Below, piece by piece: positions 3,769-63,631 of a stretch of 64,000 bases of DNA. How positions within the stretch are numbered: the stretch's first letter is position 1; each line of letters opens with the position of its first letter. The position numbers were made by a program, and so were the translations under genes. The stretch is from NCBI GenBank assembly GCA_001972305.1, contig BDDD01002108.1:15795-79794 (forward strand), written 5' to 3'. Source of the DNA: Cephalotus follicularis (Eukaryota; Streptophyta; Magnoliopsida; Oxalidales; Cephalotaceae). The notes beneath the pieces were generated by a model. The model was given only the letters and a program-made list of their open reading frames with translations. It had not been told where the DNA came from and did not search any database.

Positions 3769-3900
3769 GTCGACAGTTAGTATTTAAGCGTTGACGGTTA
3801 AAGGCCAGGCGTCGACATTACACAGTTTGAGCGTCGACATTCCAAGCATTACTATGCCATTTCCGTATCAAGCGTCGATAGTTACCTTATAAGCGTCGAC
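3769..3900. repeat. 21-bp phased palindrome array, A1 LTR block 2
   Basis: Cores related to GTCGAC start at 3769, 3790, 3811, 3833, 3874 and 3895. Steps are 21, 21, 22, 41 and 21, the 41 being two steps with a decayed site between. The flank version is AAGCGTCGACGCTT. The bases between cores differ from step to step, so it is not an ordinary tandem repeat. On the LTR's own strand it lies downstream of the donor-like GGTAAGT. Confidence 0.8.
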
Positions 3901-4822
3901 GCTTCTGGGTTTAATACGAATCCCAGGAGCAGTTTCAAAACAGGGGATGTATGGAAATCAATTTAAACTCAGTACAATTCATCATGCAACCAAGTATCAA
4001 CTATCATAACATACTACACATGTTATATGTTCAAAAACATGTCTAAATCCCCTACCTCAAATGCTATCCCAAGATCAATTTGGAATTGATCTTTCACTTT
4101 GTGTTATCCAAGCTTTTCACCAACAAAGCTTCCAATCCAGCAAGATTAATCTAAATCATGCATGTTTATAGGCTTTAGATACGAATTCAGTAGGTTAAAT
4201 AGTCATCTAACCATGATAGCATCAAGGAATTGAACCAAGCTTATGATTAAATCCTAAGCTCCATCTCTTTGAACAACATAACAAGTTCAAGTTCTAAATC
4301 CTAGATTCTCTCCCTAACGTTTGTCAACAATGGACATGCATATCAATTTAATCTGTCTCCATAATTGTTAACCACAGCAACAACAAGGAATTTCGGTTAC
4401 TTACCAAATCCAGGTGATGTTACCAAGCTTTCCTCTCTTTGCTTCAAGTTCCTTCCTCCTCTAGCAATTCTTCAACAATTGTCCAGTTGGTCTCACAATT
4501 CTCTCAGTGTTTCTAACACTCAACCAGCTTAAACACCAGCTGATATAAGAGTTCAAACTTTTGCCTTTGATTTTCTTTGTCAGTTTCCCTTTACTCCCTT
4601 GCACTCTCTCTCACTTCACATGCATATACTCACTTTTTTTCTTTGCAGATTGTGCAGGTTGAAGGAAGGCATGCAAGGCCTTAGTTCTGGTGTTAACAAC
4701 AGTTGGCAAGGACCCCCTTGCATGGAAAACACGTCTAAGGACGCGTGCCTTGGATCCCCTCATTTAAACCTTTAATTTCCATGCCAACATACACGTGTTC
4801 TGCGCCAGAACACGACCAAAGC

Positions 4823-4978
4823 GTCGACTGTTAGCCTTGGGCGTCGGCGCTTAATGCGCCCTTAGGTGTTTATACGGAGCGTTTTAAGTCGACTGTTGGT
4901 GCCTAACTTAGTCTTCAAAGGTGCATTTTGACACATGCCAGGTCTTAAAGTGTCGACGGTGTAATTTTAGGCGTCGGC
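4823..4978. repeat. Phased palindrome array, A1 LTR block 1
   Basis: Cores at 4823, 4843, 4888, 4952 and 4973 (GTCGAC or GTCGGC). Steps are 20, 45, 64 (close to three steps) and 21. Flanks are AAGCGTCGACTG or GGCGTCGGCG. On the element's strand it lies within the first 320 bp of the LTR, upstream of the leader. Confidence 0.7.
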
Positions 4979-5139
4979 GGTTTGACACCAAAAATCAATT
5001 CTTTAGATTTCCATTTAAAATTTTATTCCAAGCATTTATCAAACACAAGAATTATAATGATTGGACATAAAATTCAAATGAGTGCACATTTTATTAATCA
5101 TTATCACAATGTATACGAATTGAATTTGCGGTTATTACA

Positions 5140-5458
5140 CCTACTCTACAGATTTGCCGAAGTGAAGTGGAGTTAGTTGCTGAAGCCGTACGTGGAGGCT
5201 TTTGCTTATCTTAAGGTTGTTATGTGTAATGGTTATGTTTTGTAATGAATAAAGTTACACTCCGTTGTTGTATTTACATTTCCATATGTAATATATAACA
5301 TATACTTTTGAGCTTAAGCACGTAGTATGGGCTACGTGTGCATGCTACCTTTTTAATCCAGTGTGTTGTGCTTCCGCAAAAGTTGTAAGTGTTATGTGTT
5401 TTGGTATAATACTGGATTTATGTGATATCATATATTTTTGTTAAAACGGGGTGTGACA
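5140..5458 (+). repeat. A2 5' LTR, 3' remnant
   Basis: Aligns with 12256-12575 of A2's 3' LTR, starting exactly where A1's LTR ends, and closes with CGGGGTGTGACA. The first five bases (CCTAC) correspond to CCAAC in the 3' LTR, so they are both A2 sequence and the likely right-hand target duplication of A1. Confidence 0.9.
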
Positions 5459-5462
5459 AACA

Positions 5463-5474
5463 TGGTATCAAAGC
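5463..5474 (+). other. A2 primer-binding site (tRNA-iMet type)
   Basis: TGGTATCAAAGC lies four bases inside the LTR end, one change from the canonical initiator-Met primer-binding sequence. Confidence 0.9.
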
Positions 5475-5566
5475 ATATTCCTTATATGCTCAAGCTGTGA
5501 TAAGTTTCTCAAAAAATTAAGTGATTTGTTTCCTAATGGTTATTATCATTCCTTATAGGAAACATA

Positions 5567-6720
5567 ATGGATCTCCAAAGAGGAAGGCGGAGAAGGCCTA
5601 GGGCCGAGGATGGAGTGAATGCACCACAAGAACATGGTGATGTTCTGCAAGCGAACGAAGGAAAGAATGATCCACAGATGAATGTAGACAATAATATGCC
5701 ACAAATGCCTGATGGAAGGAGTAACTTTGATCGTATGGCGGATCTCTTCCAACATCAAATTTAGGCTAATGCAGCGAACATGGAGCAATTGTGACAGATG
5801 TATGAAGTGAATCAAGCATACCAACGAGCTCCCGAGGTGTACCGGGCTGACAGATTTGGGAGAGACTTGGAGCGGTTCATACGACAGAATCCTCCGTTGT
5901 TCAAAGGGGAGTTGGATGCTACAGTGGCAGAGCAGTGGATGAAGGAAATGGAGAAGATCTTTGCTTCTTTAGAATGTTCTAATGCACAGAAGTTAAATTT
6001 TGCTGTGTACCGCTTATGGAGAGAAGCTACCCATTGGTGGGAGATGATTGAAGCAAAGTGGGAATCTCTGCATCTTGACCGAACTTGGGACAGATTTCAG
6101 TCTAAGTTCAATGACGCTTATGTTCCACAAATGGAGCGGGGTAGGAGGGAGACAGAGTTGCTTGAGCTGCGTCAAGGAGACATGAAAATGGATCAATACC
6201 AGATACGGTTCATTGAATTGTCCCGACACACGCCCTATCTAGTGGAGGGAGAGTCGAGGAAGATGCGGAGGTTTTTGAAAGGGTTGAGACAGGACATCCG
6301 ATCCAGACTGGTGGCTTTGCAGTTGTATTCTTTTGTTGACATGACAGAAAAGGAGAGAATTCTGGAAGCTGATGCTAATGAGAGAAGGATGGAGAGATCT
6401 CGTGGATCTCAATCGAAGCCTGCTGCTTTGAACCGGCAAGGAAGTAATGATCTTGTGGGTTCTTCAAAGTCCGGAAACAAGGGACGAAGGAACGCTTCTC
6501 GTTCCAAAACACCGAATCAAAGTGATCAACAGAGTTCTGGAGGGTGTAGTTTTTGTGGTCTTTCCAGTCATGATGAAAATAATTGCTGGAAGAAGGTAGG
6601 AAAGTGTTTGAAGTGTGGTTCGCAAGAGCATCGTGTGAAGGATTGTCCTATTGTGAGGGCTCAACAAGGAGATGCTGGACCTAGTGATGGTAGCGCGACT
6701 GTCCAACTGCGAAGAGATTT
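5567..6720 (+). pseudogene. gag: A2 gag region
   Basis: Starts at the ATG after the primer site with MDLQRGRRRR. An acidic, Q/N-rich stretch follows, then the gag core (about 5800-6360; FIRQNPPLFKGELDATVAEQW and WDRFQSKFNDAYVPQ are typical). A basic, Ser-rich linker leads to two CCHC knuckles at about 6545-6586 and 6605-6646. The product would be the capsid/nucleocapsid precursor. Fossil with few breaks. Confidence 0.9.
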
Positions 6721-6789
6721 AGGAAAAGCTGTTATGAAAGGTAGAGTCTATACCTTGTCTAAGGATGATGTACCAAAGTCTCCTTCTGT

Positions 6790-8650
6790 TGTGGGAGGTA
6801 CCATTTTCATATATGGTATTTCAGCTAGAGTTCTGATTGACCCTGGTGCTACACATTCGTTTATTGGATCATGTTTTCTATCTGATTTGAATTGTGTTAC
6901 TGCTTTCTTGCCATATGTTGTGGAGGTGAATACTCCAGCTGGAAATAGTCTGTTATCTGATACTGTGATACGTGGTTGTGGGATCACGATAGCTGGAGTT
7001 CAGTTATCCGCTGATTTGATTGTGTTGTCTATCCAAGATTTTGATGTTATCTTGGGGATGAACTGGCTTTATGCTCATCATGCGAGTGTTGACTGCTACA
7101 ACAAGATGATGACTTTCTATATGCTTGATGGGACTGAGTGTAGGTTTGTCGGAGAGAAGAAGATTTCTGCTTCTATCATTTCTTACACGTGAGTGTAGAA
7201 ATATCTCAAGCGTGGATGTGAAGGTTACTTGGCGTATGTCATTGATCATACAAAAGGTATGCCTAGTCTGGAACAGATACCTGTTGTCTGTGACTTTCCA
7301 GATGTTTTTCCAGATGATCTTGTTTGTTTGCCACCAGAGAGAGAGATGTTGAGTTTAGTATTGAGCTGTTACATGGAACGGCTCCTATATCTAAAGCTCC
7401 TTATAGAATGGCGCCTGCTGAATTAAAGGAGTTGAAAACTCAATTGCAGGACTATCTTGATAAGGGTTTTTTCCAACCGAGTGTGTCACCATGGGGAGCA
7501 CCGGTCTTGTTTGTGAAAAAGAAAGATGGATCGATGAGGTTATGCATCGATTACAGAATGTTGAATCAAGCGACAATGAAGAAAAAGTATCCTCTATCTC
7601 ACATCGAGGAGTTGTTCGATCAGTTGCAAGGCTCAACTGTATTCTCCAAGCTTGACCTGAGGACTGGTTACCATCAGTTGAGGATTCGTGAAAGGGATAT
7701 GGAAAAGACTGCTTTCTGAACCAGATATGGGCACTATGAGTTTTTGATTTTTCCTTTTGGTTTAACTAATGCTCCTGCAGCTTTTATGTGCTTGATGAAC
7801 AGGGTGTTCCAACCCTACCTTGAGCAGTTCGTCGTTATCTTCTTATATGACATTTTGATTTACTCCAGGAGTGTGGAGGAGCATATGCGACATCTCCGGA
7901 TTGTGTTAAAAACCTTGCGAGAGGAACAGTTACACGCGAAGTTCAGCAAGTGTGAGTTTTGGCTGGACCATGTGACTTTTCTTGGTCATATTGTGTCGAG
8001 TGAAGGTTTGTCAGTGGATCCTTCGAAGATAGCAAGTATTGTGGATTGGCTCCAACCGAGGAATGTTACAGAAGTTCGTAGCTTCTTGGGTTTGGCTGGC
8101 TACTATAGAAGGTTTATCGAAGGGTTCTCGAAGCTTGTGAGTCCCTTGACTCGGTTAACTCAAAAGAAAGCAAGTTGGGAGTGGGATGATGCTTGTGAGG
8201 CAAGTTTCCAAGAGTTGAAGAGTCGGCTAGTTTCGGCTCCAGTGTTGTCATTACCTGAGGGTAATGAGGGGTTTACTGTATATAGTGATGCTTCTGGGAA
8301 AGGACTGGGATGTGTCCTTATGCAGCGTGGTCGCATAATAGCTTATGCATCGAGAAAGTTGAAGCCGTACGAGGAGAACTATACCGTACAAGATCTTGAA
8401 TTGGTAGCCATAGTGTTTGCATTACAGAAGTGGAGACATTATCTCTATGGTGCTCAATTTGAGATCTTTGCTGACCATAAGAGCCTAAAGTATTTGTTTT
8501 CCCAGAAGGAGCTGAACATGTTACAGCGAAGGTGGGTGGAGTTCTTTAATGACTACAATTGCAATATCCAATTCCACCTGGGCAAAGCTAATGTTGTAGC
8601 GGATGCTTTGAGTCGCAAGGCAATGATTACCAGTGCGATGGTTTCCCAGT
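6790..8650 (+). pseudogene. pol: A2 protease, reverse transcriptase and RNase H region
   Basis: The protease shows the active-site segment DPGATHSFI (about 6840) and DVILGMNWL (about 7045). The RT shows [14 protein letters not shown] (about 7516), [13 protein letters not shown] (about 7648), [11 protein letters not shown] (about 7760) and the catalytic ILIYS segment (about 7850). RNase H shows [11 protein letters not shown] (about 8278) and ends in the [10 protein letters not shown] tail. The order protease-RT-RNase H-integrase defines Ty3/gypsy. Broken, with a few breaks. Confidence 0.92.
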
Positions 8651-8769
8651 GGAAGCTTTTGGAGGATTTTCAGAGATGGAATCCGTTCATGGTTTCCCGA
8701 GGAGTGATTGTGGCTAGTCTTAGAGCATAATCGGAACTGCTTGACCGTATTCTGAATGCTCAGTACAGT

Positions 8770-10145
8770 GATACCAAGTTGTGGAATGTTCGGGAGAATT
8801 TGGGCTCAGATACTGACTCTGAATTCACCGTACATGCAGATGGCATCTTGAGGATCCGAGGAAGAGTTTGTGTCCCTAAGGATGAAGGCATAAGGAATGA
8901 GCTACTGCAGCAGGCTCATAAATCGCATTATAGTGTTCATCCAGGAAGCTCTAAGATGTGGCACGACCTGAAAAAGAAACTACCGGTGGTGTGGAATGAA
9001 GAGTGACATTACCGGGTATGTAGCGAGATGTCTGACTTGTCAGAGAGTGAAGGCTAAACATCAAAAGCCTGCCGGAATGTTACAACCTTTACCAGTGTTT
9101 GAATGGAAGTGGGATAATGTGACCATGGACTTTGTGTCAGGGTTACTGAGGTCACATAATGGAAAAGACACAGTGTGGGTTTTAGTGGACAGACTGACTA
9201 AGTCTGCGCACTTTCTTCGGATGAACATGACATATTCGATCGAGAAGTTGGCTCGATTATATATCCAGGAGATTGTGAGACTACATGGTGTGCCGGTCAG
9301 CATTTTGTGTGATCGTGATGCGAGATTTACTTCAAGGTTATGGAAGAAGTTCCAAGCAGCATTGGGAACAACCTTGAACTTCAGCACTGCGTTTCACCCC
9401 CAAATCGATAGACAATCGGAGCGCACTATACAAACTCTTGAGGATATGCTCCGTGCTTGTGTCATTGATTTTGTTGGGAGTTGGGAGGATCACATACCAC
9501 TCATAGAATTCTTCTATAACAACAGCTACCATACCATTATTGGGATGGCTCCGTATGAAGCTTTGTACGGATGGATGTGTAGATCGCCAGTATGCTGGGA
9601 TGAAGTGAGGGAAAGACAAGTGTTGGGACCTGATATCGTCCAGGAGACTATTGATAAAGTGGAGATAATCAGGAAGAGATTACATGCTGCAAAAGATTGT
9701 CAGAAGTGCTATGCCGACAGGAGGAGGAGGAATGTAGAGTTTGAGAAGGGAGACCATGTGTTCTTGAGAGTCTCACCTTCGAAGGGCATACACAGATTCA
9801 GCGTGAAAGGGAAATTAGCTCTAAGGTATGTTGGACCATATGAAATACTGGACTGAATTGGGGAAGTTGCTTATCAGATAGCACTATCGCCCAATCTATC
9901 GAATGTGCATAACGTATTTCATGTTTCCATGTTAAGGAAATACGTTCCTGATCCATCTCATATCTTGAGCTTTGATCCTTGGTTTCTTAGTGATAAGTTG
10001 TCGTATAAGGAACGACCGATACGGGTTCTGGATAGACATGAGAAGGTGTTGTGGAATAGGACAATTCCATGGGGTTGAGGAAGCAACCTGGGAACGTGAA
10101 GCGGACATGGTTGAAACATTTCCTCACCTGTTTGGAATGTAAAAT
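8770..10145 (+). pseudogene. pol: A2 integrase and chromodomain-like tail
   Basis: Integrase zinc-binding HHCC elements lie near 8924-9052 (HKSHYSVHPGSSKM, then CLTCQRVK). The catalytic core follows, with MDFVSGL, VDRLTKSAHF and CDRDARFTSRLWKKF to about 9560. The tail (about 9905-10140) has NVHNVFHVSMLRKYVPDPSH and an EEATWERE type end, which is how the chromodomain-like C terminus of Tekay/Del elements usually looks. Broken. Confidence 0.9.
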
Positions 10146-10181: not shown

Positions 10182-10348
10182 TGTAATAACCGTAAATTTC
10201 AATTAATGTACATTGTAACCATAATAAATAAAATGTGCATTTAATTGAGATTTAATGTCCAAGTGTTATGTGTTTATGGTTGTTGTTGGTTTAAATACAA
10301 GGCTTGAGTTGAAAGTGTGTTGTGGTGTGAATAGTGGGGAACAAAACA

Positions 10349-10408
10349 CCCGACTGTTTGTATAAACGGCCGACTGGTTGCTTTGTATAGAAGTTAAAAA
10401 TAGTCGAC
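10349..10408. repeat. Palindrome array, A2 LTR block 1
   Basis: Three cores: CCCGAC at 10349, GCCGAC at 10369 and GTCGAC at 10403 (steps 20 and 34), each continuing into CTG. They lie 170-220 bp into the LTR, upstream of the leader. A short, weaker block. Confidence 0.6.
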
Positions 10409-11139
10409 TGGTGGAGTCTGAACAGGAAGGCTATGTGTTGCACGAAAACAGAGTGTGGCGTGTTGCTTTGTGGACATGTGTGAGACGACGGATTTCACAA
10501 GGTTAAGTGGCATGGACGTGTCACAGACTGAGTATACTGATGCATTGGTGTCTCTGAGCCTCTGCAACCTGTAAGGAACCAAAATCAGTAAGTAATGAGA
10601 GAGAGGGGAAGAAAAGAGCAAAAGTTGGAGTTGAAGGAATGAGTTGAATTCCTTGGACGAAGCTGCCTATATCAGCTGTTCATGGATGATTTTGAGTGTT
10701 GGAAACGTTGAAAGGAGAGAAGTTAACTTCTGTGTGTGTGCATGAGGAACTGAAGCAAGTGGAGTTAACTTGGAATAGAAGCTGGGAATTCCTTTTCGGT
10801 AAGCTTCTGTTGTTGAATTCCAGTTGCTGTTATGGTTGTTCAGTAGTAGATACGTACTGATTTTGTTATGTATAACTACTGCTAACATGCGATCGTAGCC
10901 TGAATTGCTGGTTGTTTTGGTTGAAAGTGGAAGTTGGGACTTAGAGAGAAGAATCATTTCAACTGATTCTAGGATAGCGTTTGAGGTAGGTAGAAGGAAT
11001 TTATGACATGATTCTGATATATATAGCATACTTTTCGTGCTATGATAGCCTATATGTGTTTGCATGTTGATTGGAATTCAATTTGAGGTTGTTTTCATGC
11101 ATACTCTGTTTCTGCTGAAAACGAACTTGGGCTTGGACA

Positions 11140-11290
11140 ACCGACTGTCTTGAGTGTCAGTCGACTGCTTAATGTAAACAGCCGGCTGTTTAGTACAAAC
11201 ATCCGACTACTAAATGTATTCCAGCCGGCTATTCATATAGAACAGTCGACTGTGTAAGGCAACAATCGACTGTGAAGGAAAACAGACGAC
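11140..11290. repeat. 21-bp phased palindrome array, A2 LTR block 2
   Basis: Eight cores start at 11140, 11160, 11181, 11202, 11224, 11245, 11265 and 11285, so the steps are 20, 21, 21, 22, 21, 20 and 20. Versions are ACCGAC, GTCGAC, GCCGGC, TCCGAC, GCCGGC, GTCGAC, ATCGAC and GACGAC, nearly all followed by CTG or a close variant. Sequences between cores are unrelated. On the LTR strand the block lies downstream of the leader and the donor-like GGTAAG. Confidence 0.9.
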
Positions 11291-12582
11291 TGTTCAGAGA
11301 CAATTTTGCCTCTAATGCCTACTGTTTAATCTCAATTGAATGAAATTGGAATTGGGTTCATAAGGGATGGTTCTAATAATCAACCTCTTATAATTGTAAT
11401 TGTTTTACAGCAAGTGAAAAACTTATATAGATCCTTGTAGATTGCATGTAATGTTGTTGAGTGACTATTTTGTGCAATTCTTGAATTGTTAGGCAATCTT
11501 ACCTATTGCTAGTGCTACTGTTATTGATGTTCTGTTTTCTTAAAATGATTACAACATCTTTATTTCAAGGGTTACTAATATTGAACACTATATGCATAGT
11601 TATGTTTTAACCACTAAATGATATATGCATATTTTGAAGGTTTTTCACTTATTTTGAAAGAAAACCTAAGGTTATTGAATTGAGTTCTCTAAGTTAGTGT
11701 TTATAGTTTTCTTAAACGAAAACTCAATGAAATGTAATGTTTTCCCAAAAGAGATTTTATTGAAGTGTTATATTACATTACTTATATGTGATATCAGTGA
11801 TTAATTGTGATTGAGTGATGCTGATGGTTTAGTGATTGGAATGTGTCACTAACTACAGCGGGTGAGCGGATGTGTCAGGAGTTGGCTCGAGCTTATTTAC
11901 CCCACCTATCTGCCTTGCAGATTGTGAGTGTTAACTACCCGCCAAGTGCCGGCAGTAGTGATTGCCTTTTCTATCATCATCGGAGTATATGGTGGTGGTT
12001 AGGCTGTGCATCGGTTGGGCTAGGAGGTAGCACGAGATGACACCCAATAGTGGTCTTCGGACAAATGATTTAATTGATTGTACCATTGTGCGGTATTCTT
12101 GTTGATTGATCGTTGTAGCCACTTGGCATGTTTTCTTATATATATTGACATATATAACTGTTTTCAAAATGATAAACTGTCATACATGTCTTGCATCATA
12201 TATCTCTTTATCATGCATATCTTCCTGCTTAGCCAAGTGAGGACAATGGCTAATACCAACTCTTCAGATTTGCCGAAGTGAAGTGGAGTTAGCTGCTGAA
12301 GCCGTACGTGGAGGCTTCTGCTTACCTTAAGGTTGTTATGTGTAATGGTTATGTTTTGTAATGAATAAAGTTACACTTCGTTGTTGTATTTACATTTCCA
12401 TATGTAATATATAACATATACTTTTGAGCTTAAACACGTAGTATGGGCTGCGTGTGCATGCTACCCTTTTAATCCAGTATGTTGTGCTTCCGCAAAAGTT
12501 TTAAGTTTTATGTGTTTTGGTATAATACTGGATTTATGTGATATCATATATGTTTGTTAAAATGGGGTGTGAAACAATTTCC

Positions 12583-18684: not shown

Positions 18685-21520
18685 TGTAACACCCCCGAGC
18701 TGTGGGAGCCGCTACAGGTGCATATAACAAAACTTAACATAACTAATCATACTAGAAAAGTTCGTCTTTATTAAAACGTGATGGTTTAAAGCATAGCCAA
18801 TAACACACTGAAACTGATCATAAACTGAAACTTATTCATAATCCAAGAGTCATAAATTAAAATGAACATATTGTTTATTAAACGGGTCCCACTATGACCA
18901 TATAAACACAAAAGGGATCAGCTCCTAGATGATCCTCAGACATAAAGGAGTCACTCTCATCACACATTGCCCCGTTGCTCCTGATAACCTGCCGCATGGA
19001 AACAAAAACGCGGCTGAGCAAACCTCAGTACGAATATAGAATGTAAAACAGTAACGATATTTTAAGCAAGAAGATTTCAAAAGTACTTTTAAGCAGAAAT
19101 CTTAACCAATAAAATAGTTTAAACATACTTTGTAATGCCCATGGAAAAACATGCAAACCAAGTTCATAACCTTGAAACCATAAAGTATACCTTTCCAAAA
19201 CATAGGTTCCATAACTGAGCACCAAAACCCATAACATATCGAAAACACATAGTAGCAAGGGGTTCACGACACCCACATTGGCAAATAGAATTACAGTGTA
19301 CGGCACTACACATACAATTCCCATATCATAACATATCCCAAAACATATAACTAGGATCGATCCACACGCCTCTATCACAAATCCTATTCAAGGATATCCC
19401 AAAGAGACGCCGTAAACTAATCACACCGTTACGGAAAGTGTCATGCCCCCGTACCAGGCCCACAGCATGCCTATGGTAACCCCATAGGTGGTTATAAAAG
19501 CTCAGTATTTCACCATTTCAAAACTTGATTTCATCAAATCAATTTAAAATGCATAGAAAGGTTTCCCAAACATAATCATAAATCGTTCTCAAACGATATA
19601 GTTTCACATAACGTATACTTTCATAATAAAAAAGGCAACTCTTTAATTTTCACAATAAAGCGACATATCACAGCTGAATTCATAAAGTCAGAAATATTCG
19701 TTTTTGTAAAATATCAAACTGACTTCATTTGAGACATGCAAAATATACTTAGTTCATAAAGCCAAATAAAATATATCATAAAACTGAATTCATTTCAAAT
19801 AATTCAGATGTCCAAAACTGATTTTATTTCGCTAAAATCGAAGATAGTAGCAAAGAGCAGAATCTCATTAAAACAAAACAGATTCAATTCAGATAAAATC
19901 GAATGATAACTAAAACAAGAATCCGTATTTTATCCTCAAAACAGAACTGAATTTGTGCTCTAATAAAATCAGTAAGAGTGTATCAAGGAACGAAGATCCG
20001 TACCTTATGCGATCATAGACTAACTTACGAATATCCGGTAAACTTAATTTGCCTCACGTAGCACAACAATCTATTCAACATAACAATATTCAAATAAGGG
20101 TCTAAAATTCATGTTAGGCATAAAACAGAATCATAATGATGTTTAAAATAGACCTTGATCATTGGGAGAATAAATGGATGAAAACAGAAAGTTACAAGAC
20201 AATCCAGCCGACTGTTTCAGGGATCCAGTCGACTGTTCAAGGGGTGGCAGTCGACTACACAACAGGGCCAGTCGACTACTCAACCTGGACTGCAGGCAGT
20301 CGACTGAATCAGGGGTCCAGCCGACTACTCAACATAAGATAGTTGACTGTTCGTACAAGACAGCCCACTACACAAACTAAACAGCCGACTGTTCATATGG
20401 GCAGTCGACTGCTCTAGGTGACAGAACAGCTGTTTAGTGCAGTTTTGTGCAATCTAGTTGCCAAAACTCGAATTTTTCATCACCAGAAGATTACCAACAT
20501 GCAAAACAACTTTATATGGCATGTAAAACGATGTTATAACACAAAATTTGGCAGGAACATATTGACATCGAATTATTTAAAGGTGACAGGGACATAAACC
20601 ATAGCATACCAATGCATAACCCAATTCAGTCCACTTATCACTCTCACATGCCTCAAAACCAGATTATATAACACTCCCTAGATGTCTGCAGATTGCTGCT
20701 AACACAAGATTTATTTGACAGAAAAATAAGAAGGCAGAAATTTAGACAACTCCTTCTCTAGCAACCTATACATGCTAAAACAAATTCTGGATCATTTAAT
20801 AGCATAACCATCACAAATAAGCATCAACTAACCTGCGATGGCTACACTAACTGAAGAAGAACATATCTGTTCGACAGAATCAAAGGAGAAAAACATACAC
20901 TCAAAATGTTGACAGTGCTATACCATTAACAATAAAACAATTACTGAATTGAACCTTGATGAAACTAACCTTATAAATGGAGTAAGAAGACACAGAAATC
21001 ACAGCCTCAATGACACAGCAAGTTCGGCAGTAGCAACACACAGAAAGAGATAGCCAATTCCATGGCATTGTCTCACATAAATAGCAAAAGGGAAGTAAAA
21101 CGGGAAAGAAGAGAGGATTGAGGGAAAGATAAGGAATAAATGGGATAGAATAAGGTTGATAAGGAAGAAGATGATTGTTGCCGTGTGAAAGTAATGAGGG
21201 AAGGAGAGAGTTTGGGAGAGGAGAGGGAAGAATAGGAAAGAAAGAAGAAAATAAGAAAGGAAGGAAAAAAAGGAATTAAGAGAAATAGGGATTTTGAAAA
21301 TAATTTGTTTTAAAAAGGATTATAATTATGTATTTATAAATTGGTTTGTAATGATAATATGACTAAGCTTAACCAACCAAAAAGTTCATACTAACATGCC
21401 CAAAACTAAGGCTGGTATCAGTCAGCCCAAAAACATAAACCCAACATAGAACAGACAAATGCTTAAACGAAACAGATAAAACTCGTCAGAAAAATACGTA
21501 CAGGCAAGCAGGGTATTACA
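18685..21520 (-). mobile_element. Solo LTR, E family (2.84 kb)
   Basis: Plus-strand edges TGTAACACCC...GGGTATTACA, flanked on both sides by the same five bases AACGG (18680-18684 and 21521-21525). On its own strand it starts TGTAATACCCTG like element E and shares E's segments, for example GTGATAGAGGCGT and GTGTAGTGCCGTACAC. One palindrome array is present at 20207-20409. No internal region is attached, so it is the product of LTR-LTR recombination inside element G. Confidence 0.92.
20207..20409. repeat. 21-bp phased palindrome array in E-family solo LTR
   Basis: Ten cores at 20207, 20228, 20250, 20271, 20299, 20320, 20342, 20363, 20384 and 20404. Steps are 21, 22, 21, 28, 21, 22, 21, 21 and 20. 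The version is CAG(T/C)CGACTG or CAGTCGACTAC. Eight of ten keep the central CpG. Both E LTRs have a similar block at about the same distance from the LTR start, also with a single 28-bp step. Confidence 0.92.
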
Positions 21521-22134: not shown

Positions 22135-24432
22135 TGTAACGACCCTGACCCGAGCTCGCTAATAGCTCAAAGCAAACTCTGAGGATTGGTTGCGTTACGT
22201 TGGGTGTGAAACGTTACATCCTTTGGTACTCTTCTCTAAAAGTACATTACATCATAAACTCATGTCTTGCAACATCATACATAATCTTAAATTCAAACTT
22301 TACACATAATCATCTTATATAAAGATGTCATAACCATATCGTTGGTCTACATTTACACAGGATCATTCTTCTACATAAACATATAATACAGCGGAAAAAC
22401 TTTGTTCTTATTACATATCCAAACATTTATGCAAACATTATTGCATATCCTTTCTTTCACAAAAACTCCTTCTTAAGAGCTCCCTCTAAGCTCGTAATCT
22501 CCATTCAATCATTTCCTGAAAACATTTTATTTGAAAACAAACATTGAAACGAATGAGCTCAAAATAGCTCAGTAAGGTGTTTTTATAGTAAACACATTTC
22601 ATCATAACATTTTTCTGGTCAATACATATAACTAGAACATTTTGTAAAGCATATCAGTTTTCTAATTACAAACTCGTAACTAGAACATTTCATAAACATA
22701 GAAGTCATAAAAACCTTAATGAACCCTTTACACCGCTTCACTGGGGCATTGTGCACTCCTCGACTACTATCCTTACATCACATGCATGTCCGTGAGCATC
22801 TCGCTCCATTAACATTGAGCATCTCGCTCCATTTCCCTTGGATCGCAATCCAAGGGAAGTTCATTCATCATTTATTTTGAGTGATCAGCTCAAAGAATTC
22901 ATAAAAATCATTTCATATCATTTCTTTCACAATTCATAAACTTTTCTCTTCATTTGAGTAATTGACTCAAATAAGTTCATAAAAATAGTTTTGTGTAGCT
23001 TTGCTAAAACTGATAATTCATATAGAAATAAGAATTTTCAGATAAAACTCAAAACATAAACATTAAATCAGACCGCTTTAAGAATTCAGAAAGCACAAGA
23101 TCATGACAATTGGTTGAGATTTGAATCAGTTATGAATTTTTGAAAGTGGCTGGTTCCATATGAAAATAGGGCATGAGCAGTAAAATGAAACAACAATTCT
23201 TATCAATAATTCGATAGAATTTCGAGATACATAAAACATAAAATTTAAAGAGCACATCTTAAGGTTTTCAAAACATCCAACCATTTAATTTTTCGTTAAG
23301 AAACGAGCAAGATATGATTTAAAGAAGTTGTTGCATAATTCAAGAATAAAACAGTACCGAAACAACAGTTTAAAACATGGATTTTCGTCAAGAAATAGAT
23401 AGAATCTTGAAACGTTCAAAGTATAAAAGTTAAAGAGGACATCCTAAAATTTCCATAACATTCAACCATTCAAAAATTCATCAATAATTGAGCAAGATAT
23501 CAATAAAATCATCTGCTATAAAAATTGGAAGTAAAATAGGGGATACTTTGTAGAAAATGGGTATAGAATTTCCTTATTTTGCTTTAGAATTTCTTTCTCT
23601 TTTGCTCTTCCACGAATTCTCCACTTCACTGTTATCAGGAGAACTTTCTTTCTCAGCCAAAAATGAATGAGTTCAACCCTCTTTGCCATTAAATAGATGG
23701 GTTACTTGGGAGGCAAGTTTTCTCCCCCTCTCACATAACTCAACTCCCTCTCTTGGCAGCCCATGTGTTCAAATTCAACCAATCCAAGTGATTACACCTG
23801 TTAGATCACCTGATAACATCTCATATCATCCTCCCCTGGCCTGTCACGTGTCCAAAATTAAAGATTTTTACTAACAAAAAGCCAAAAAGTCAGATTTTGC
23901 ATTTTGTCTGTAGCTCAAAGCGTCGACGTTTTCTCCCTCAGCGTCGACGTTTTCTCCCTAAGCGTCGCCGGTCACGGGCTTCACCTGAGTTCTCCACTTC
24001 TATCCCGACTAAAGCGCTGACTCTTTCTTACAAAGCATCGTCGCTTTAAGTCTTCCTCTAGGACACACTTGGCTTCAACGCGTCGACGTTTACAATTAGA
24101 GCGTCATCCGTTTCCCAAAGCGTCGACTCTTTTAATAAAACCGTCGACGCTTTAGACATCTTTGTCCAGTCTTAACCTTTTAGATTGACGCTTTTAACAT
24201 GACATTCATACAAAATAAATAGCCAATTTCAATTTTCTTTCGGGGGCGCTGCCCTCGAGCCCCTGCCCGCTGACCGGGAAGCAGGACCCCCTGTCCGCTC
24301 ACCTGGGAGCGGAACCCCCAAACCCCCCGAGCGTAGGGTCATACCACGGGTCCCTTGAACTATTTGCCAATTTACACAATAGCAATCATCTTTCCATAAT
24401 TAATATCTTTAATGAAAATTCGGGTCATTACA
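22135..24432 (-). mobile_element. Solo LTR (2.30 kb)
   Basis: Plus-strand edges TGTAACGACCC...GGGTCATTACA, with perfect five-base duplications CCCTG at 22130-22134 and 24433-24437. On its own strand it starts TGTAATGACCCGAATTTT, close to LTR L at 61390 (TGTAATGTCCCGAATTTT), so the two belong to one group. It carries the array at 23922-24148. A C-rich tract (24241-24320) with CCCTGCCCGCTGACC repeats follows. Confidence 0.92.
23922..24148. repeat. 21-bp phased palindrome array, GCGTCGACG version
   Basis: Cores at 23922, 23943, 23964, 24016, 24037, 24082, 24103, 24122 and 24143. Steps are 21, 21, 52, 21, 45, 21, 19 and 21. Best copies read AAAGCGTCGACGTTT. Weaker members (GCTGAC, ATCGTC, GTCATC) still hold the spacing. 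It lies 280-510 bp from the LTR start on the LTR strand, as block 1 does elsewhere. Confidence 0.88.
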
Positions 24433-26555: not shown

Positions 26556-26975
26556 ATTACATCACTGTGTTACCCTAATTGATCACCAAATGAAAGATCC
26601 AAAGGCAACAAGAGGTCCTCTCAAAGGGAAGAAGGTGAACGACTCTCCAGACCGAGGCCTAGGTCTCATTTGGAGATTTCAACTTTTGAGGTGTGGTATC
26701 CTGAATCTTTCATGAATCGCAAAGTCTTGCCCGGTTATTTGAAAACGTATTATTTTCAAATAGCCATTTTGCATTCAAAATAGTCATTTTCGGTTTCACA
26801 TATGCATTCCCAAATTAACATTGTAATCTAGAAATCATAAACAGCTATAATCAGTCAATAAACAGGCAGTAAACAGTACATATGCAATGCATACAAATGC
26901 TCTAATGCCTCCTAAACAGAGTCGGGATCGTCGCGCACCGTTTCAAGCAAGAGAGAACTAAACAGTAGCTTGAAA

Positions 26976-27136
26976 GTCGGCTGGATCCTTCACCAGTCGA
27001 CGGTTCTGGGTAATCAGTACATGAGTAGTCGACTGGTTCCTTCCACCAGTCGACTATTCATCAGGCAGTCGGCTGTTATCCTTCAACAGTCGACTGTTTC
27101 GATTGAGTAGTCGGATGTCTTCCTTCGACAGCCGAC
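26976..27136. repeat. 21-bp phased palindrome array, block 2 of solo LTR
   Basis: Cores at 26976, 26996, 27028, 27049, 27068, 27089, 27110 and 27131. Steps are 20, 32, 21, 19, 21, 21 and 21. Versions: AGTCGGCTG, CAGTCGACGG, TAGTCGACTG, CAGTCGACTA, CAGTCGGCTG, CAGTCGACTG, TAGTCGGATG and CAGCCGACTG. Confidence 0.9.
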
Positions 27137-27481
27137 TGTTCTGGAACCCGGTTACATGCAGACAAAATATAGTTTACTCTAACGGATCATGGCAATGTCC
27201 GTATACATATTCTTGAAGCAGAACCTCATTAACTAGTCTCAAAGGGTTCATAGCGCACAACAGTAAGCATGCATTTTATCCAGTAATCCAATTCCAAGAT
27301 AAAATTCAACATGCACGTACATAAGTTCAAGAAACCTCCACAGTAAACATGGCATGTGTAAAACCTACAGTAATCATGGTCATATTAACTGAACATCATA
27401 GCTTATACTAGCAGGCAACCAATCGCATAAACATGCAGTAATCTTGAACTCAAAATACAATCATAACTTCCCCTACCTTTT

Positions 27482-27499
27482 TATTCCAAGTTAGGAATA
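27482..27499 (-). other. Hairpin 5 nt upstream of donor-like GTAGGG
   Basis: On the minus strand TATTCC-TAACTT-GGAATA makes a six-base-pair stem with a six-base loop. Five bases later comes GTAGGGG (GT at 27475-27476). The same loop and distance, with different stem bases that still pair, occur at 30055-30072 and 62865-62880. Confidence 0.65.
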
Positions 27500-27966
27500 T
27501 GTAATTCCACCTCTTTGTGTTCCAAAAGTGAAGTTTTGAGCTCCCAGGTGCTTCAACTCCAAGTCCAGCAGCTCCAACCCGTCACGTCCAACTCCTATTG
27601 GTTCAACAATTTGAGAAACTCTCTCTTTTTCTCTCAAGATCCTTTACTATTTTCCTCTGTAATTCTCACTGGTTTTCTTTCCTTGTATGCACTGGGCGAG
27701 AGAGGTGAAGAGGAGAGCGTTTTAAGTAGGTGGTTCTCTCCCTCTTTCCTCCAACCCGTTTCCCATGGCACTAAATGCCATCCTCTTCTCATATTTGCAT
27801 GCACACACACACCAGACTGATTCTCCCTGTCCCATGACCTGCATGGCGCACAGGTGTTCCCTCTCTCCTCTGCATTGATCGCATGACGAACAGATGGCGC
27901 CCCCACTCCTCCCTGTCAGTTATTGCATGTGATTTTGTCACATGAAATAAAACAGAGCATAAACCA

Positions 27967-28113
27967 GTCGGCTGTCCTCACCCAACAACCAACTGTTCGC
28001 CTAGCAATTCGTTGCCACGTGGCTCGACAGTTGTCCAGTTGACTGGTTCATCCCACCAGTCGACTGTTCCAAAACACAGCCAACCAGCCAGCTGGTCTAA
28101 CGTATCAGTCAAC
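27967..28113. repeat. Palindrome array, block 1 of solo LTR
   Basis: Cores at 27967, 27988, 28038, 28059, 28087 and 28108, giving steps of 21, 50, 21, 28 and 21. Several members are weakened (CAACCAACTG, CAGTTGACTG, CAGTCAACTG), but the 21-bp pairing is kept. Confidence 0.8.
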
Positions 28114-28965
28114 TGCTTTGGTTCCCTTACTAAGTAATCACACTTCTAAGTACTTTACTTGATTTAGAATCAACATATTAACCGTGAAACCCATCTTTTC
28201 ATTAACTCAACAACAAGATTACATCTGAAAATAAAAAATTACAACGTGCAAAATTCTCGGGCGTTACATTAATAAACCTCATTTTCCTTATGTCATGAAG
28301 GATATCTATGATAACTTTGTGAGTAGTGATAGGTTTGAGGTTTCAACTTCTATGAAAGAAACTAGAATTGATTTGGATTCTAGAATTCTAGGCACAATTT
28401 TTGATGTTCCGTTTGATGGTGCGTCTGGATTGTCTTAATAGGAATTGGGGATGGTTTCAATAAAGAGGAATGTTTGCATGTGCTATTTGCAGATCATGCT
28501 GAGGTTCCGGACAAAATGCTATTTTGCAATCTAGATTTGAATCTTTGATTTCTTTATAGAATTGTTTACACACATGTCTTTGCCAAGAGTGGTGGATATA
28601 ATAAGGTCATTAAGAAGGCAACATCTACAATGGACCATATCATTATGGGAAAAGGGATCAATTTGCCTTTGCTAGTCCCTCGCTACATGAAGAGTATGTA
28701 AAGCAAAGAAAAAGCCCGTTTTCCATACGAAAATGTTGTCACAAAGATTCTCAAGCATTTCAACATTCAATTGGATCAAGAGACTTCAATTGATCTACTT
28801 CCAATGAATACTCTTGGAAGTGGTACTCTTAGGCGTATGAAATTCAAGAGGCACAAAAAACATGAAGGATGGGTGCCTAGGGATGAAATTTCTGATGAAA
28901 GAGAAGAGGAAGAAGATGGCAAAAGAGATGACCCTATGGATGAAGAAAAATTGGGCGATCAACAG

Positions 28966-29152: not shown

Positions 29153-29580
29153 CATCATCGCTGGCATCTCCGCCACACAACTAGTACGGCCACAATCACA
29201 ATCACAATCAGCAATCACAATCAAGCTCAATCACAATCATCTCGATGCTCAAATTGTTTTCCATGTAGTTTATAAAACAAAATAACCTGAAAACAAACTC
29301 ATTTTCACGATGTCACTGTTCACGGTTCTCGATATCACAAAACTCAGTTCACGGTGTTTTTGGAAGCCATTTTCACGGTTCGAAAGTATATATTTCTCAA
29401 AACATATAATTTTGTGTAAAGTAATGATTTTCATTAAACTACAATGCACTTCCAGAATCATGTTATAACAGTCCAATCTCAATAACCACAATACCCAAAA
29501 CAGTTTATAAAGCTTCACGAAGTAAAACACCACAAGACACAATGCATACATATGTTCACGGGCAAAATAGGCCCCCAACA

Positions 29581-39311: not shown

Positions 39312-42300
39312 TGTAATACCCTGTTCGTTCACGTGCATATTTTGGATTTTAAATTTGATTTATTGGTTTTGTTGGCATAATGTGTTCTTTGGGTTATGTG
39401 AATTTAAACTTAGGGCTTTTATTTTATTAGGATATGATTGTTGGAAAAACAAAAATCTATTGTCTTGTTATTATATGGTTGGTGAATATTGGTTGGATTA
39501 TGTATATGAATAGGTAAAATTAATTTAATTATATTTCGTATAAATATTAAATTGGTTTTTATTATTAACGTGGTAAAATCGTTTTAATTGGAAAACAAAC
39601 CCTTTTATTTTGGGCTTTCATATTTATTATAAAATAGTTGAATTATTAATATGGCATACGTGTATTATATTGGAAATAAAATAAATGAATTATGGCAATT
39701 TTATCTTGTTTCTATTTTCTTCCCTCCCTTTCCCGTTTTTCTTCCTTCTTCCTTCCCAAAACTGATTTCTTTCCTTCTTCCTCTCCCTCAAATCCCGAAA
39801 TTATGCCCCCTTTCCACGTTATATCAGAATTTGGATTCCTTTTTGGCTCATCATGACTTAAATTGCCTTATTTCTTGGTTATATATGATGTATGCTCTTT
39901 GTTTGTGCCTCCATTGTGTGTCTCTGTCTTGGTAGCCGAATTGCCTAACTTGGAGCCTGTTTTATGCTTCTTTATTCATACAACCAGGTTTGTTATCTTC
40001 CACTGTTTTAGTTTAGCATTCAGTTTTGATTTTATTGTTATCCTATTCTATTTCATGGAGTTGCTAGTGTGGTTTGTTTGATTTTTGCTATCATGGTTCC
40101 TGGACCTGTCAACATGCATTAGGTAAATGTTATGAACTAGTTTTGATAAACAAATAATGATAGTTGACAGGAAATTGATCATATAGGCATCCATGCATGA
40201 AATTGAAATTGCTTCTCTTTAAAGAAAGGTCACCCATTGCATGAACTTTTGATTCTGTATGTTTAAATGCCACGGTTAAGTCACATAAGACCTATATAAG
40301 TGTTTAAAATCATCTGGTAATGTAGTAAGACAGTTTTGACAGAAAATTGGAATTGAACTGCTATTTTTTGCTGTTCTGTCGCCCAGAACAGTCGACTGCC
40401 TCTTGAAACAACCGACTGTTTTGCCTTGCACAGTCGACTGGACTCCTGTCACAGTCGACTGGATTCAACCTAGTATGAGTAGTCGGCTGCCTATGCCACA
40501 CAGTCGACTGCCACCTTTGAGTAGTCGACTGGATCTTGATACAATCGACTGGAATTGTCCAGAAAAATTTCTGGTTTTAAGTTTTGTAATCCGTTTGTTC
40601 GTCTATTGATTTGGAGCATGTTTTAAGCATTGTTAAATTACTGTTTGATGTTTGGAAGTGATATTTGAATGCTTATATGAATGATATTGTATCTTTTAGA
40701 TTTTTGTGCTTCGAGGGACTTTTAAATTGTTGATCAATTCTTCTATCTTTGTTGTGATCGCTTAAGGTACGGATTTTCGTTCCTTGATACACTCTGGTGA
40801 TTTCATAAAAATAAATCAGTTATATGTTTTTGTGAAAATGTAAGGATTTCTATCGTTCTTCGATTATCTGATTTTATTGAAACTGCCCTGTTTTACTTTA
40901 TAAATAACGTGCGGATTTTCTATCATTCCTAGCCTATCTGTTTATCAAACTAAAATCAGTTGTATTCTATGATCTCGTTTTATAGATTTGATTATGTTTT
41001 ATAATATGTTACGTAAATAAAATTGGTTTTTGACGTTTTATGATAGTAAACGTTCCCAACTATATTTTATGCTAAGATACGTTACGATATATTAAGAAAT
41101 GATCATCTCTTTATAGTGAAAAATAAATGAGTTGATGATATGTAATGATTTTGCTATGTCCAGAAAATGTTTAGAAAACGTGTATACATTTTTAAATTGA
41201 TTTTAAAAATAAAACCATGTTTTTGAAATAAAGATATACAAAGAGATATTTCCTACCTATGGAGGTACCATAGGCGCGTCGTGGGCCTGGCACGAGGACA
41301 TGACATTTCTGTAGCAATGTGATGCGACTACGACGTCTCTCTGTGTTTTGAATAAGTGCCATGAGGTGGACTTATGGATCCGATTTTGTGATAGAGGCGT
41401 ATGGGTATACTCTAGTTTTTGATATGTTAAGGATTCGAATTCTGGGGATTGATTGTGTAGTGCCGTACACGTATTTCCGTTTGGCATGTGGGCCTCGCGA
41501 ACCCCTTGCGACTTCGCATATGTGTATGCGCTTTGGATCTCGGTGATGAGATTTTGGAAATCGGATAAGTCTCTGTTTGTTTGTTTTTCGTTTTGAATAT
41601 GTTTTGGGATTTTAAACTTAGCTTATGTTTTTAAAATTGAATAACGCTTTGAAAATTAGATATTCGTTTTAAATTGATTGTATGACTACTTACCCTCATT
41701 TTTTTTGAAATTAATGTTAAATTATTTTATGCATAAAGTATATGATATCTAAAGATTCAGGTATTTTCTATCTTTTAAATTATCGTTTTATGTTTTATGA
41801 TTCTATATCCGTACTGAGGTTTGCTCAGCCGCATTTTTGTTTTCATGCGGCAGGTACTATGGGACAACATCCGGGCAATGTGTGATGAGCGAGATGTCAC
41901 CTATGATAAGGATTACTTAGGAGATGGACTCGTTTTTGTTTAGTTAATTTATGGTCATGTTAGGACCCCTATTCGAACTATGTTATGCCTTTCAGTTTAT
42001 GACTTAGAATTATATTTAAGCTTATGGGTTTATGTTTAAGTTTCGTATTATGAATAAAGTTTTAGACCATGTTTTTAGATTTTGGAATAAAGTTGCTAGA
42101 CCATTATTAGATTATAATTGTTACGTCTAGACCATCACGCAATTCGAATAATCGATGAGTTAATATTTTGATAGTAAGAATAAAGGCGAACCTTGATTTA
42201 TAGTTAAATATGAATACATGCTAAGTTAATAACTTGATAAAAAGAATAAAATTGAGCCACGTTATAAAATCGGTTATGTTTAGTTTAGGATTAGGAACCG

Positions 42301-59517: not shown

Positions 59518-59518
59518 G

Positions 59519-61245: not shown

Positions 61246-61389
61246 TAAATTTGGTATAAAACACCTTTTATAAAATAGAAATTATAAATCAATTTAAAGG
61301 GTATTTTTTCACATCTAAAATTTTTTTCCCATCAGTTTCTTCACAACAATTTAATAAACTTACAACATGCTAAACTACCCCTAACTATT

Positions 61390-62043
61390 TGTAATGTCCC
61401 GAATTTTCATCCAATGTATTTTTTGTAATTCTCATTGTAATTTTATGATGAATTAATGAGAATGATGAATTTTCCCAACTTGTGATGTTGAAGTGTGAAT
61501 TAAGAGTGCTAAAAGTGTTGTGATGGATTGAACATATTAAAATTGGCCTAAAGCGCCAATGCCATGAAGCAAATCATCGAAGCCAAGGAAACTAATCGTG
61601 CCCTTAAGCACATGCCCTCAAAGCGTCAATGCCAAGAGATAGCGTCGACACCAAAGGGTAAGTAGAGTTAAGCGTCGACGCCCAAGTGGTAACCGTCGAT
61701 GCTTAGAATGTCTGACAGCGCGACGTGTTAAGTGATCACCATTCTCCAAGCATACAACAGTTGAGGGGAAGAGAGAATGAGCTACTTGTGCGTCATACGA
61801 CCAAAGGGAAAGAAGAAATGGACACTTGTACACCATGCAAGCCGAATGAAAGAGAGAATGAGCCACTTGTGCGCATGCGGCCTGGTTGGAAGGGAAAGAA
61901 GGGCACTTGTGTGCCATGCGGGTGAAAGGAAGGGAGAGAGACACACACATAAACTCTCTTCTTCTTCTCTTCAAACCGGCGCCTGGAAAGAAAGGGAAGG
62001 AGAAGGAAAACAGAGAGAATAGAGAGAAAACACGGAGAGAAAT
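61390..62043 (+). mobile_element. LTR L, 5' part, interrupted by LTR K
   Basis: Starts TGTAATGTCCCGAATTTT, like the solo LTR 22135-24432. It contains array 61554-61700 and a GA-rich leader (61765-62040). It stops where K begins, and the remainder should continue beyond the window. Confidence 0.75.
61554..61700. repeat. Palindrome array in LTR L
   Basis: Cores at 61554, 61576, 61624, 61644, 61674 and 61695: steps 22, 48, 20, 30 and 21. The best copies are AAGCGTCGACGCC and AGCGTCGACACC; the first two are weak. Confidence 0.7.
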
Positions 62044-62217
62044 TGTAACGCTCGGTATTTTCGTTTTGTAATATTTCATTTTAAGATGTAATCTTATGTT
62101 GAATTAATGAAAATGTTGGAGATTTCGACCTCAATAATGTTACCAAACCCTAATTATTGTTTTGGGGAAAGAAATGTGCATGATAAACCAAAAACGACAC
62201 AGTTTTGGGGCAAACGC

Positions 62218-62359
62218 GTCGATGTCCTTGGAAAGACGTTGACGCCTATGGGAGCAAAGGCGTACGTGAATGCATGTACATGCACGTCGATGTAGGCAAA
62301 GACATCGACCCCCATGTATGAAAAGGAAATAGACATCGACGTCTATGGAAGACGTCGAC
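62218..62359. repeat. Palindrome array, LTR K block 1 (GACATCGACGTC version)
   Basis: Cores at 62218, 62238, 62286, 62304, 62335 and 62354: steps 20, 48, 18, 31 and 19. The version is AGACATCGACGTCT or GACGTCGACGTC. The pair distances are slightly shorter than in the other dialects. Confidence 0.75.
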
Positions 62360-62864
62360 GTCTTTGGAAAGAATGTCAGTCACGTTATGAACTGACAGAG
62401 TAAAATGCAAGAGGGAAGGAATTAGAATCCTTGCAGGCGCCTTGAGGCACGAGAAGGAGACGTGTTGATCATGCACAAGGGCCTCCTGACCTGCATGACT
62501 GAAGAAGGGTGAAATAGGTAACAAGTGTTACCATGCATGCAACCTGCAAAAGAAAACATGAGAAGAAAACAAAATGGAATGCAGAGTTCTGGGAAAGAGG
62601 GAGAGAACACAAGAGTGTTCATTGAATGCAAGGAGAAAGAGGATGGGGGAGCTATTTGCATAAGAACAACCCCCTCCCCATCTCTCTATCTCGTTTAAAA
62701 CACCAAAGGAAAGGAAGAGGAGGAAACCAGTGAGTGGGACAAGGAGAGAGACACCATTGTTGAGCTTGGTTGGAGCTGGGAACTTGGAGCTGGTGGCTTG
62801 CAACAATGGGACGGACCTAGAGGCTGCTGTAACAAATTTGGAACTTAAAGGGGTGGACATTCCA

Positions 62865-62880
62865 GTTCCTAACGTGGAAC
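62865..62880 (+). other. Hairpin upstream of donor-like GTAGGG in LTR K
   Basis: GTTCC-TAACGT-GGAAC: a five-pair stem with loop TAACGT (one loop change from the other two copies). The GT of GTAGGGG is at 62887-62888, the same distance from the stem position as in the two solo LTRs. Confidence 0.65.
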
Positions 62881-63125
62881 AACAAGGTAGGGGAAAGTGA
62901 TGATTCTTATGCATGCCTTTTGAGTTCTAAGATAATGAATGCCATTGATGAATTGCATGTAAATGGGTGAATTGTAATCTCTGGACTTCTGTGATGATTA
63001 CTGTGAAATATGGAGTAACCATGCATGTGTGATTACATGAATATGTGAACTGGTTGTGTAAGGATGGATTTGATAATGGCTTGGTATGTTAAAACTGTGG
63101 ATAAAACGTTCTGGGTTGGTTAGAC

Positions 63126-63631
63126 ATCGACGTCTACACGAAGACTTCGATGCCTTCATGTGAAAATGTGAAAGACATCGATGCTTGAGTAAAGACATAG
63201 ATGCCTTTTCTGGGCATTATAGAACAGTAATGTTATGCCTTCGTGTGAGAATACGAAAGACATCGATGTCTTTGGGGAGACATCGACGCCTTCTCTGGGT
63301 ATTGCAGAACAATAGTGCTTACTGTTGTTGGTGAACTGCCTTTGGTGATTGCATGTTTTATCCATGAAATGATTGTTCTGGTTACATTCCTTGTTAACCA
63401 GTAGCATGCCCTGCACTTTGAGGGAGTGAGATTCGTTTATATGAAGGATTAAAGGCCATATTCTACCCTATAGAATCGAGATTCGCGATCTGATACTTCC
63501 TGGTATCATAAAGACATCAACGTCTTTGGAAAAGCATCGATGTCTTTGGTCCAAAAACGCCTGGGAATAACTGCTCACAATGTTGGCGCCTTAGGGTAAA
63601 AGACGTCGACGCCTTTGGGATAAACATCGAC
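63126..63631. repeat. Palindrome pairs, LTR K block 2
   Basis: Paired cores: 63126/63146, 63177/63197, 63262/63282, 63516/63536 and 63605/63626, each pair 20-21 bp apart. The version is AGACATCGATGTCTT. Unlike the other blocks, pairs are scattered over 500 bp rather than joined into one run. Confidence 0.8.

Follow-up and report, generated by a model that had tools for sequence, protein, structure and literature searches.

The 64,000 nt stretch of the Cephalotus follicularis genome analysed here (assembly GCA_001972305.1, contig BDDD01002108.1, positions 15,795 to 79,794; in the following called the window) contains blocks of short palindromes centred on YCGR, in which neighbouring palindromes follow each other at steps of 20–22 bp. 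These blocks are located in the long terminal repeats (LTRs) of Ty3 retrotransposons, their palindromes are better conserved than the spacers, and arrays about 1.1 kb apart share the same class of palindrome more often than by chance. The observation is confirmed and recurs across the genome. The blocks are probably cis-regulatory enhancer arrays of these LTRs, which would recruit a cooperative, sequence-specific factor.

Two classes of sites can be distinguished, class I (CAGYCGRCTG) and class II (RCGTCGAYGY); the latter ranges from AAGCGTCGACGCTT to AAAGACATCGATGTCTTT, and a single array often contains a mixture of these forms. The YCGR cores are mostly TCGA, CCGA or TCGG. A preliminary description of the window had counted at least sixteen blocks with 20–22 bp steps, and sixteen were confirmed when they were re-read. 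The step lists it gave for the blocks at 11140 (20, 21, 21, 22, 21, 20, 20) and 40391 (20, 22, 21, 28, 21, 21, 20) were exact. That for the block at 20207 holds if two decayed sites lacking the CG are counted (64 = 22+21+21), and that for the block at 26976 if extra YCGR words which are not palindromic are disregarded. The term "21-bp lattice" describes the nearest-neighbour steps well, but not the recurrent off-lattice steps of 27–28, 49–50 and about 71 bp; at long range it amounts to a 10.4-bp period in class I and weak order in class II. Irregular steps occur in the blocks at 4800–5000, 23910–24170 and 63110–63650.

Perfect CG-centred 6-bp palindromes form 14 pairs at 19–23 bp in the window, compared to a mean of 0.98 (standard deviation 0.96, maximum 4) in 60 block-wise dinucleotide shuffles. 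Other distance bins are raised less steeply (24–39 bp: 13 vs 3.5; 40–45 bp: 11 vs 1.4), because the sites are clustered. Pairs with GC, AT or TA cores at 19–23 bp stay inside the range of the shuffles. The excess is also found outside the discovery window: ten 10-kb stretches taken arbitrarily from this assembly, one of which is 43% N, contain 16 CG pairs at 19–23 bp versus 1.53 after shuffling (maximum 5), and this bin is the steepest of the raised ones. There, AT (34 vs 19.7) and TA (37 vs 14.8) cores at this distance also exceed every shuffle, as they do in most other bins, which is what simple repeats would give; GC cores do not. The CG excess is approximately 10-fold, that of AT and TA about 2-fold.

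Searching the whole assembly (1.577 Gb, 9746 contigs) for the class I pattern CAGTCGACTG-N4..34-CAGTCGACTG yielded 64,792 places, compared to 209 for the reversed pattern, so that exact close pairs of a single 10-bp palindrome make up a very abundant, regulatory-looking layout. Pairs of the class II palindrome GCGTCGACGC occur at 4,803 places versus 7 for the reversed pattern, and a control palindrome of the same letters with GC replacing CG (CAGTGCACTG) at 0 places in the assembly. According to the preliminary description, a flat distance histogram would have spoken against the lattice. The class I distances listed peak instead at 19–22 bp, followed by 41–43 and 27–28 bp: of 86 centre distances listed, all from contig C1, these ranges hold 57, 17 and 12, respectively, and no other distance between 14 and 44 bp occurs among them. 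For GCGTCGACGC, 41 of the 50 pairs among the matches listed are at 19–23 bp. Arrays contain up to 16 sites (one array of locus L015, one of L030). The 18-bp steps of L009–L028 are a selection effect, since these loci were taken from places found with an 18-bp-spaced pair. We also fetched 20 LTR pieces blind to palindromes (L039–L058, picked from 100 places listed for variety of the LTR start). A strict lattice array, defined as at least four sites with at least three steps of 19–23 or 40–44 bp, is present in 6 of them and in 0 of 100 shuffles; under a looser criterion, 11 of the 20 have a chain of at least three sites past +900, as read by eye.

In the window, Ty3 elements with frames for RVP_2 protease, gag, RT-RNaseH and integrase are nested in one another. 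In element E2 the domains RVP_2, Retrotrans_gag and RT-RNaseH precede the integrase frame, the zinc-binding domain of which is above and the core domain below the cut-off; a chromodomain in one element is just under the Pfam cut-off. Judging by the gag-pol domains, the lineage may be Tekay-like. A polypurine tract precedes the LTR start, TGTAAYRNCC, and a TGGTATCA primer site follows the LTR end. In the best-resolved ones the order in sense direction is start, array 1 (approximately +150 to +330), a TATA-like box, a leader motif and array 2 (approximately +800 to +1600). In five LTRs read base by base, array 1 is about 100–460 bp upstream of the TATA-like TAAAAC box, which by eye is found at approximately +375 to +650 (five LTRs). 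The conserved leader motif TTCCTAACTTGGAA is followed by AAAG|GTAGGGG, resembling a 5' splice site, and array 2 begins about 200–380 bp downstream of it (five LTRs). Array 2 is therefore placed, on sequence criteria, in the putative transcribed leader or its intron, promoter position and splicing both being predictions. Only array 2 was seen in LTR C and in both LTRs of element G, and only array 1 in LTR D. In three of eight class II pieces the leader motif is found between both arrays. The features of the window are:

3765..3906, minus strand: array 2 of LTR A (class II, RCGTCGACGY); LTR from about 5139 down to 2600
4820..4985, minus strand: array 1 of LTR A (class II, irregular, with one hybrid class I/II site, AACAGTCGACGCTT)
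5795..9856, plus strand: gag-protease, RT-RNaseH and integrase frames of E2 (Ty3; its 3' LTR is LTR B)
10182..12573, plus strand: LTR B, 3' LTR of E2, with TGTAATAACCG start after the polypurine tract; end approximate
10346..10412, plus strand: array 1 of LTR B (class I, three sites)
11137..11295, plus strand: array 2 of LTR B (class I, CAGYCGRCTG, 8 sites at 20–22 bp)
20203..20420, minus strand: array 2 of LTR C (class I); LTR from about 21517 down to 18690, no array 1 seen
23918..24157, minus strand: array 1 of LTR D (class II, approximately +290 to +510); LTR start about 24432, no array 2 seen
26972..27145, minus strand: array 2 of LTR E (class I); LTR start about 28268
27484..27497, minus strand: leader motif TTCCTAACTTGGAA, then AAAG|GTAGGGG (putative 5' splice site), of LTR E
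27962..28115, minus strand: array 1 of LTR E (class I, decayed)
29577..29870, minus strand: array 2 of LTR F (class I, 13 sites); LTR start about 30671
30395..30530, minus strand: array 1 of LTR F (class I, four sites)
36091..36247, plus strand: array 2 of the 5' LTR of the non-autonomous element G (class I, decayed); LTR from 34852
40388..40553, plus strand: array 2 of the 3' LTR of element G (class I, 8 sites); LTR 39312–42331
61560..61715, plus strand: array 1 of LTR H (class II); LTR start about 61390, cut off near 62043
62215..62372, plus strand: array 1 of LTR I (class II, GACATCGACGTC form); LTR start about 62044
62866..62879, plus strand: leader motif TTCCTAACGTGGAA, then CAAG|GTAGGGG, of LTR I, between its two arrays
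63120..63640, plus strand: array 2 of LTR I (class II, irregular)

At 5137–5139 the minus-strand element of LTR A adjoins the remnant of the E2 5' LTR, of which about 5139–5458 is left. In the non-autonomous element G (34852–42331) the long LTRs (3' LTR about 3.0 kb) are separated by only about 380 bp, and an insertion interrupts the 5' LTR at approximately 37371–38766. The TTCCTAACTTGGAA stretch, in several LTRs followed by AAAGGTAGGGG, is a well conserved part of the LTR outside the arrays (27484–27497, about 30068, 35647, 39944 and 62866–62879). It is itself an inverted repeat adjoining the possible splice donor; beside the leader motif of element G the GTAGGGG part is absent. CACTA transposon ends had been an initial idea, which was set aside as the block positions fit LTR boundaries instead: around the blocks no matching pair of CACTA...TAGTG ends with a 3-bp duplication was seen by eye, with a pattern that omitted CACTAA/TTAGTG. 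Nothing similar was present among plasmid records, and viral contigs scanned with the pattern and with the RT protein yielded no relatives.

A tandem repeat in the ordinary sense should have spacers that align between neighbouring units, and the preliminary description had named this as the finding that would contradict its claim of kept spacing and core with unrelated spacers. Among 122 units spaced exactly 21 bp apart, spacer identity is 0.390 between adjacent units, 0.364 within an array and 0.291 between loci, with 0.251 expected from composition, whereas the palindromes of the same units reach 0.854 between loci. The claim is thus borne out. This comparison includes L005 but not L001, L003, L006 and L007, which duplicate longer loci. 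Part of the small spacer excess arises because the palindrome arms extend 1–2 bases into the spacer; the least random spacer positions are the outermost ones. When LTRs were aligned from the leader motif onward, the palindromes were better conserved than the spacers in 30 of the 32 pairs shown, which are those with a flank identity above 0.55 (lower pairs were computed, not shown). In 22 LTR pairs of 0.60–0.93 identity, CpG was kept in 319 of 447 comparisons in palindrome cores, versus 111 of 310 in spacers and 170 of 559 in flanks. Spacers are less conserved than the plain LTR flanks in several pairs, though not in others, which suggests turnover of the arrays with retention of the sites. With spacers near chance and palindromes and core CpGs kept, the blocks are not an ordinary minisatellite or tandem repeat.

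One could still regard the arrays as functionless, fast expansions of tandem repeats, whose similarity is maintained by slippage, gene conversion and bursts of retroelements. Spacers evolving faster than flanks in some pairs (L010/L028: flank 0.907, spacer 0.633), the slight within-array likeness of spacers given above (0.364–0.390 vs 0.291 between loci) and the fact that Tandem Repeats Finder calls some blocks short-period repeats would agree with this. However, such expansion is hard to reconcile with nearly unrelated spacers between palindromes that are kept together with their CpGs, and with a class common to arrays about 1.1 kb apart. This explanation is already strained and appears very improbable.

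The class agreement was assessed from the gaps between arrays among the matches listed. Gaps of 0.6–1.6 kb between arrays of the same class number 9 versus 1.5 expected from random placement for class I (contig C1) and 8 versus 0.17 for class II (nine contigs), while 1 of the 8 class II arrays on C1 is found within 0.6–1.6 kb of a class I array. A class I half-site is present in none of 15 arrays shown from eight class II pieces; as L059–L066 were picked as close class II pairs, class agreement between arrays is there by selection. Automatic calls on 30 scanned LTRs gave 18 with both zones called, including 14 I/I and 2 II/II. Since class I served as the seed for many of these loci, the gap-based test carries more weight. 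Given this seeding and shared descent, the class agreement is consistent with one factor reading both arrays, without being proof of it. A strict strand rule, with CCGA in the sense strand, was rejected as a general property since five blind LTR pieces show the opposite bias. In L033 (3199), L038 (346), L039 (683–696) and L043 (686–699), TGAGTCGACTCA-like palindromes occur in pairs 13–14 bp apart, possibly a third site class.

The distances within class I arrays follow the helical repeat. With nearest neighbours excluded they show a 10.4-bp period with an in-phase component of 0.434, compared to a maximum of 0.037 in 300 null sets in which every step was jittered by up to 5 bp (L005 was omitted and arrays with near-equal step lists were thinned). 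The nearest steps in class II are similar to those in class I. Strong support for a single helical face is limited to class I. This period, together with the CG-centred sites, would also suit a host that reads the arrays to silence the elements or to set nucleosomes, by rotational positioning with CG steps every 10.4 bp, rather than an activator. Yet an element would presumably gain nothing from keeping, and from re-making in a new class, sites that silence it, and nucleosome phasing needs no palindromic arms of at least 10 bp. We consider this improbable.

Arrays of palindromes might also act as RNA, pairing into stem-loops that feed small interfering RNA (siRNA) or regulate the leader, as proposed for maize Sirevirus LTRs, the palindrome clusters of which are siRNA hotspots according to the available parts of two studies (PMC5311732, PMC10760457). 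Indeed, seven arrays fold far beyond dinucleotide shuffles (sense z -3.2 to -6.0, versus -1.6 to 1.4 for four control stretches). However, folding is expected of any palindrome array on either strand, and the antisense z was better in six of the seven. The surplus of CCGA over TCGG in sense (130 vs 20) weakens pairing within a sense RNA, with five other LTR pieces biased oppositely. Furthermore, stem-loops do not require the long-range 10.4-bp period of class I, and array 1 is upstream of the inferred start. An RNA function is thus unlikely.

The enhancer reading would combine these properties as follows. Each quasi-palindromic site could be bound by a dimer or by two facing monomers, and proteins on neighbouring sites, two helical turns apart, would be in contact along one side of the helix and so build an enhancer. 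Array 1 would act from upstream, array 2 from within the transcribed leader or its intron. Families appear to have switched between the class I and class II sequence in array 1 and array 2 at once, which a single factor reading the two arrays would lead one to expect. Binding of a protein and enhancer activity are predicted here from the DNA letters. The sequence GTCGAC, which is the most frequent perfect core and identical to the core of perfect sites of both classes, is catalogued as the CRT/DRE site CRTDREHVCBF2, preferred by barley HvCBF2; in the available parts of the sources this is a single hexamer entry, with arrays, palindromic arms or spacing not mentioned (PMC4222965, PMC4553201). 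Because of this identity AP2/CBF proteins are a possible type of binder, a first guess to be taken as a lead only. If the arrays are enhancers, they would provide a testable spacing rule for the recruitment of factors by plant retroelements, and the two motif classes would allow the factor to be found by comparison.

In a related scenario, which we regard as rather unlikely, a trans-acting DNA-binding protein, host- or helper-encoded, would polymerise along the two helically phased arrays around the promoter like a key in its lock, and a joint move of both arrays to another palindrome class would free families from competition or silencing. If true, this would be the LTR-retroelement counterpart of the motif race of VANDAL transposons and their VANC proteins. 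The noncoding motif arrays of VANDAL are read by VANC anti-silencing proteins; in the part of that work at hand, short motifs have accumulated in tandem in noncoding regions and differ between related families (PMC5735166). A similar family difference exists here, where class I and class II occur in LTRs with a common leader motif and layout. In contrast to the arrays here, the VANC motifs described there (YAGTATTAY; AGTTGTCC) are non-palindromic, and a VANDAL element encodes its own motif reader, whereas here the E2 frames of at least 150 aa are those of gag-pol, with no extra one seen, and element G has about 380 bp between its LTRs; a shorter or spliced frame, or a helper element elsewhere, would be compatible with this.

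Several results weigh against an enhancer function of the arrays. In the LTR pair of element G the palindromes (0.912) are less alike than spacers (0.969) and flanks (0.971), hence arrays decay after insertion. Palindromes show no extra conservation in L016/L019 (0.646 vs 0.670 for spacers), and in L012/L013, L022/WE and L005/L010 their margin over the spacers is under 0.03; in all these comparisons the alignment can pair non-orthologous sites, flattering the palindromes, and counts over related LTRs are not independent. Among the 20 blind LTR pieces, 14 are without a strict lattice array and 9 without a chain of at least three palindromic sites past +900. One I/II and one II/I combination occur among the 18 LTRs with both zones called. 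The sites are not fully symmetric, with CCGA outnumbering TCGG 130 to 20 in the sense strand of the oriented loci, and this bias is reversed in five blind pieces (L049, L050, L056–L058: CCGA 1, TCGG 19). Off-lattice class I pairs are mostly at 0.6–0.9 turn, about a quarter turn short of phase. In class II the in-phase component at 10.4 bp is 0.083 against a null maximum of 0.060, and the periodogram peaks near 21.6 instead.

The preliminary description knew of no such module in plant LTRs. This does not hold, as in Sirevirus (Ty1/copia) LTRs palindromic repeated motifs (RM boxes) of element-specific sequence form clusters ahead of the TATA box, and one element may have as many as 32 copies; in the available part of that account 2 of 13 motifs are TCGA-centred, and the motifs are stated to be absent from 'classic' retrotransposons (PMC2829016). 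In both systems an LTR contains numerous copies of a palindromic motif with a CpG (here, for instance, 13 sites at 29577–29870), and in both the motif varies by element, as with CGGTCGACCG in Vitis and ACAATCGATTGT in Tnd-1 among the Sireviruses. The Sirevirus core is CGG-CCG (12 of 13, Tnd-1 excepted) and not YCGR, and their hosts are Ty1/copia elements, whereas here RT-RNaseH ahead of integrase indicates Ty3. The Sirevirus cluster is upstream of the TATA box, with extra copies before env; here array 1 is upstream of the TATA-like box, by eye in five LTRs, and a second array follows downstream. For the 20–22 bp nearest-neighbour steps there is no counterpart in the available Sirevirus account, which gives no spacing rule (PMC2829016). 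The arrays are of the same kind as the Sirevirus motifs, in another superfamily, which extends this palindrome module to Ty3 elements. A literature search, which lacked most subscription papers, found no Ty3 or helically spaced palindrome arrays in plant LTRs among the titles and abstract openings listed. Relative to the literature found, the Ty3 hosts, the helical spacing, the downstream array and the class switching are new.

The window also contains another repeat family with true 25-bp tandem repeats at 43992–44607 and 56545–57083 (GGTCATCTCAGTCGGTGACC.., GGTCTGCTCTGCAGCC..), which has an LTR-like start at about 55167. In contrast to the lattice arrays, these repeats are alike over the whole unit. 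Finally, TATCG-type and 40-bp repeats (GTATCGTTATCAGACCAGGACC..) are located at 52393–53003.

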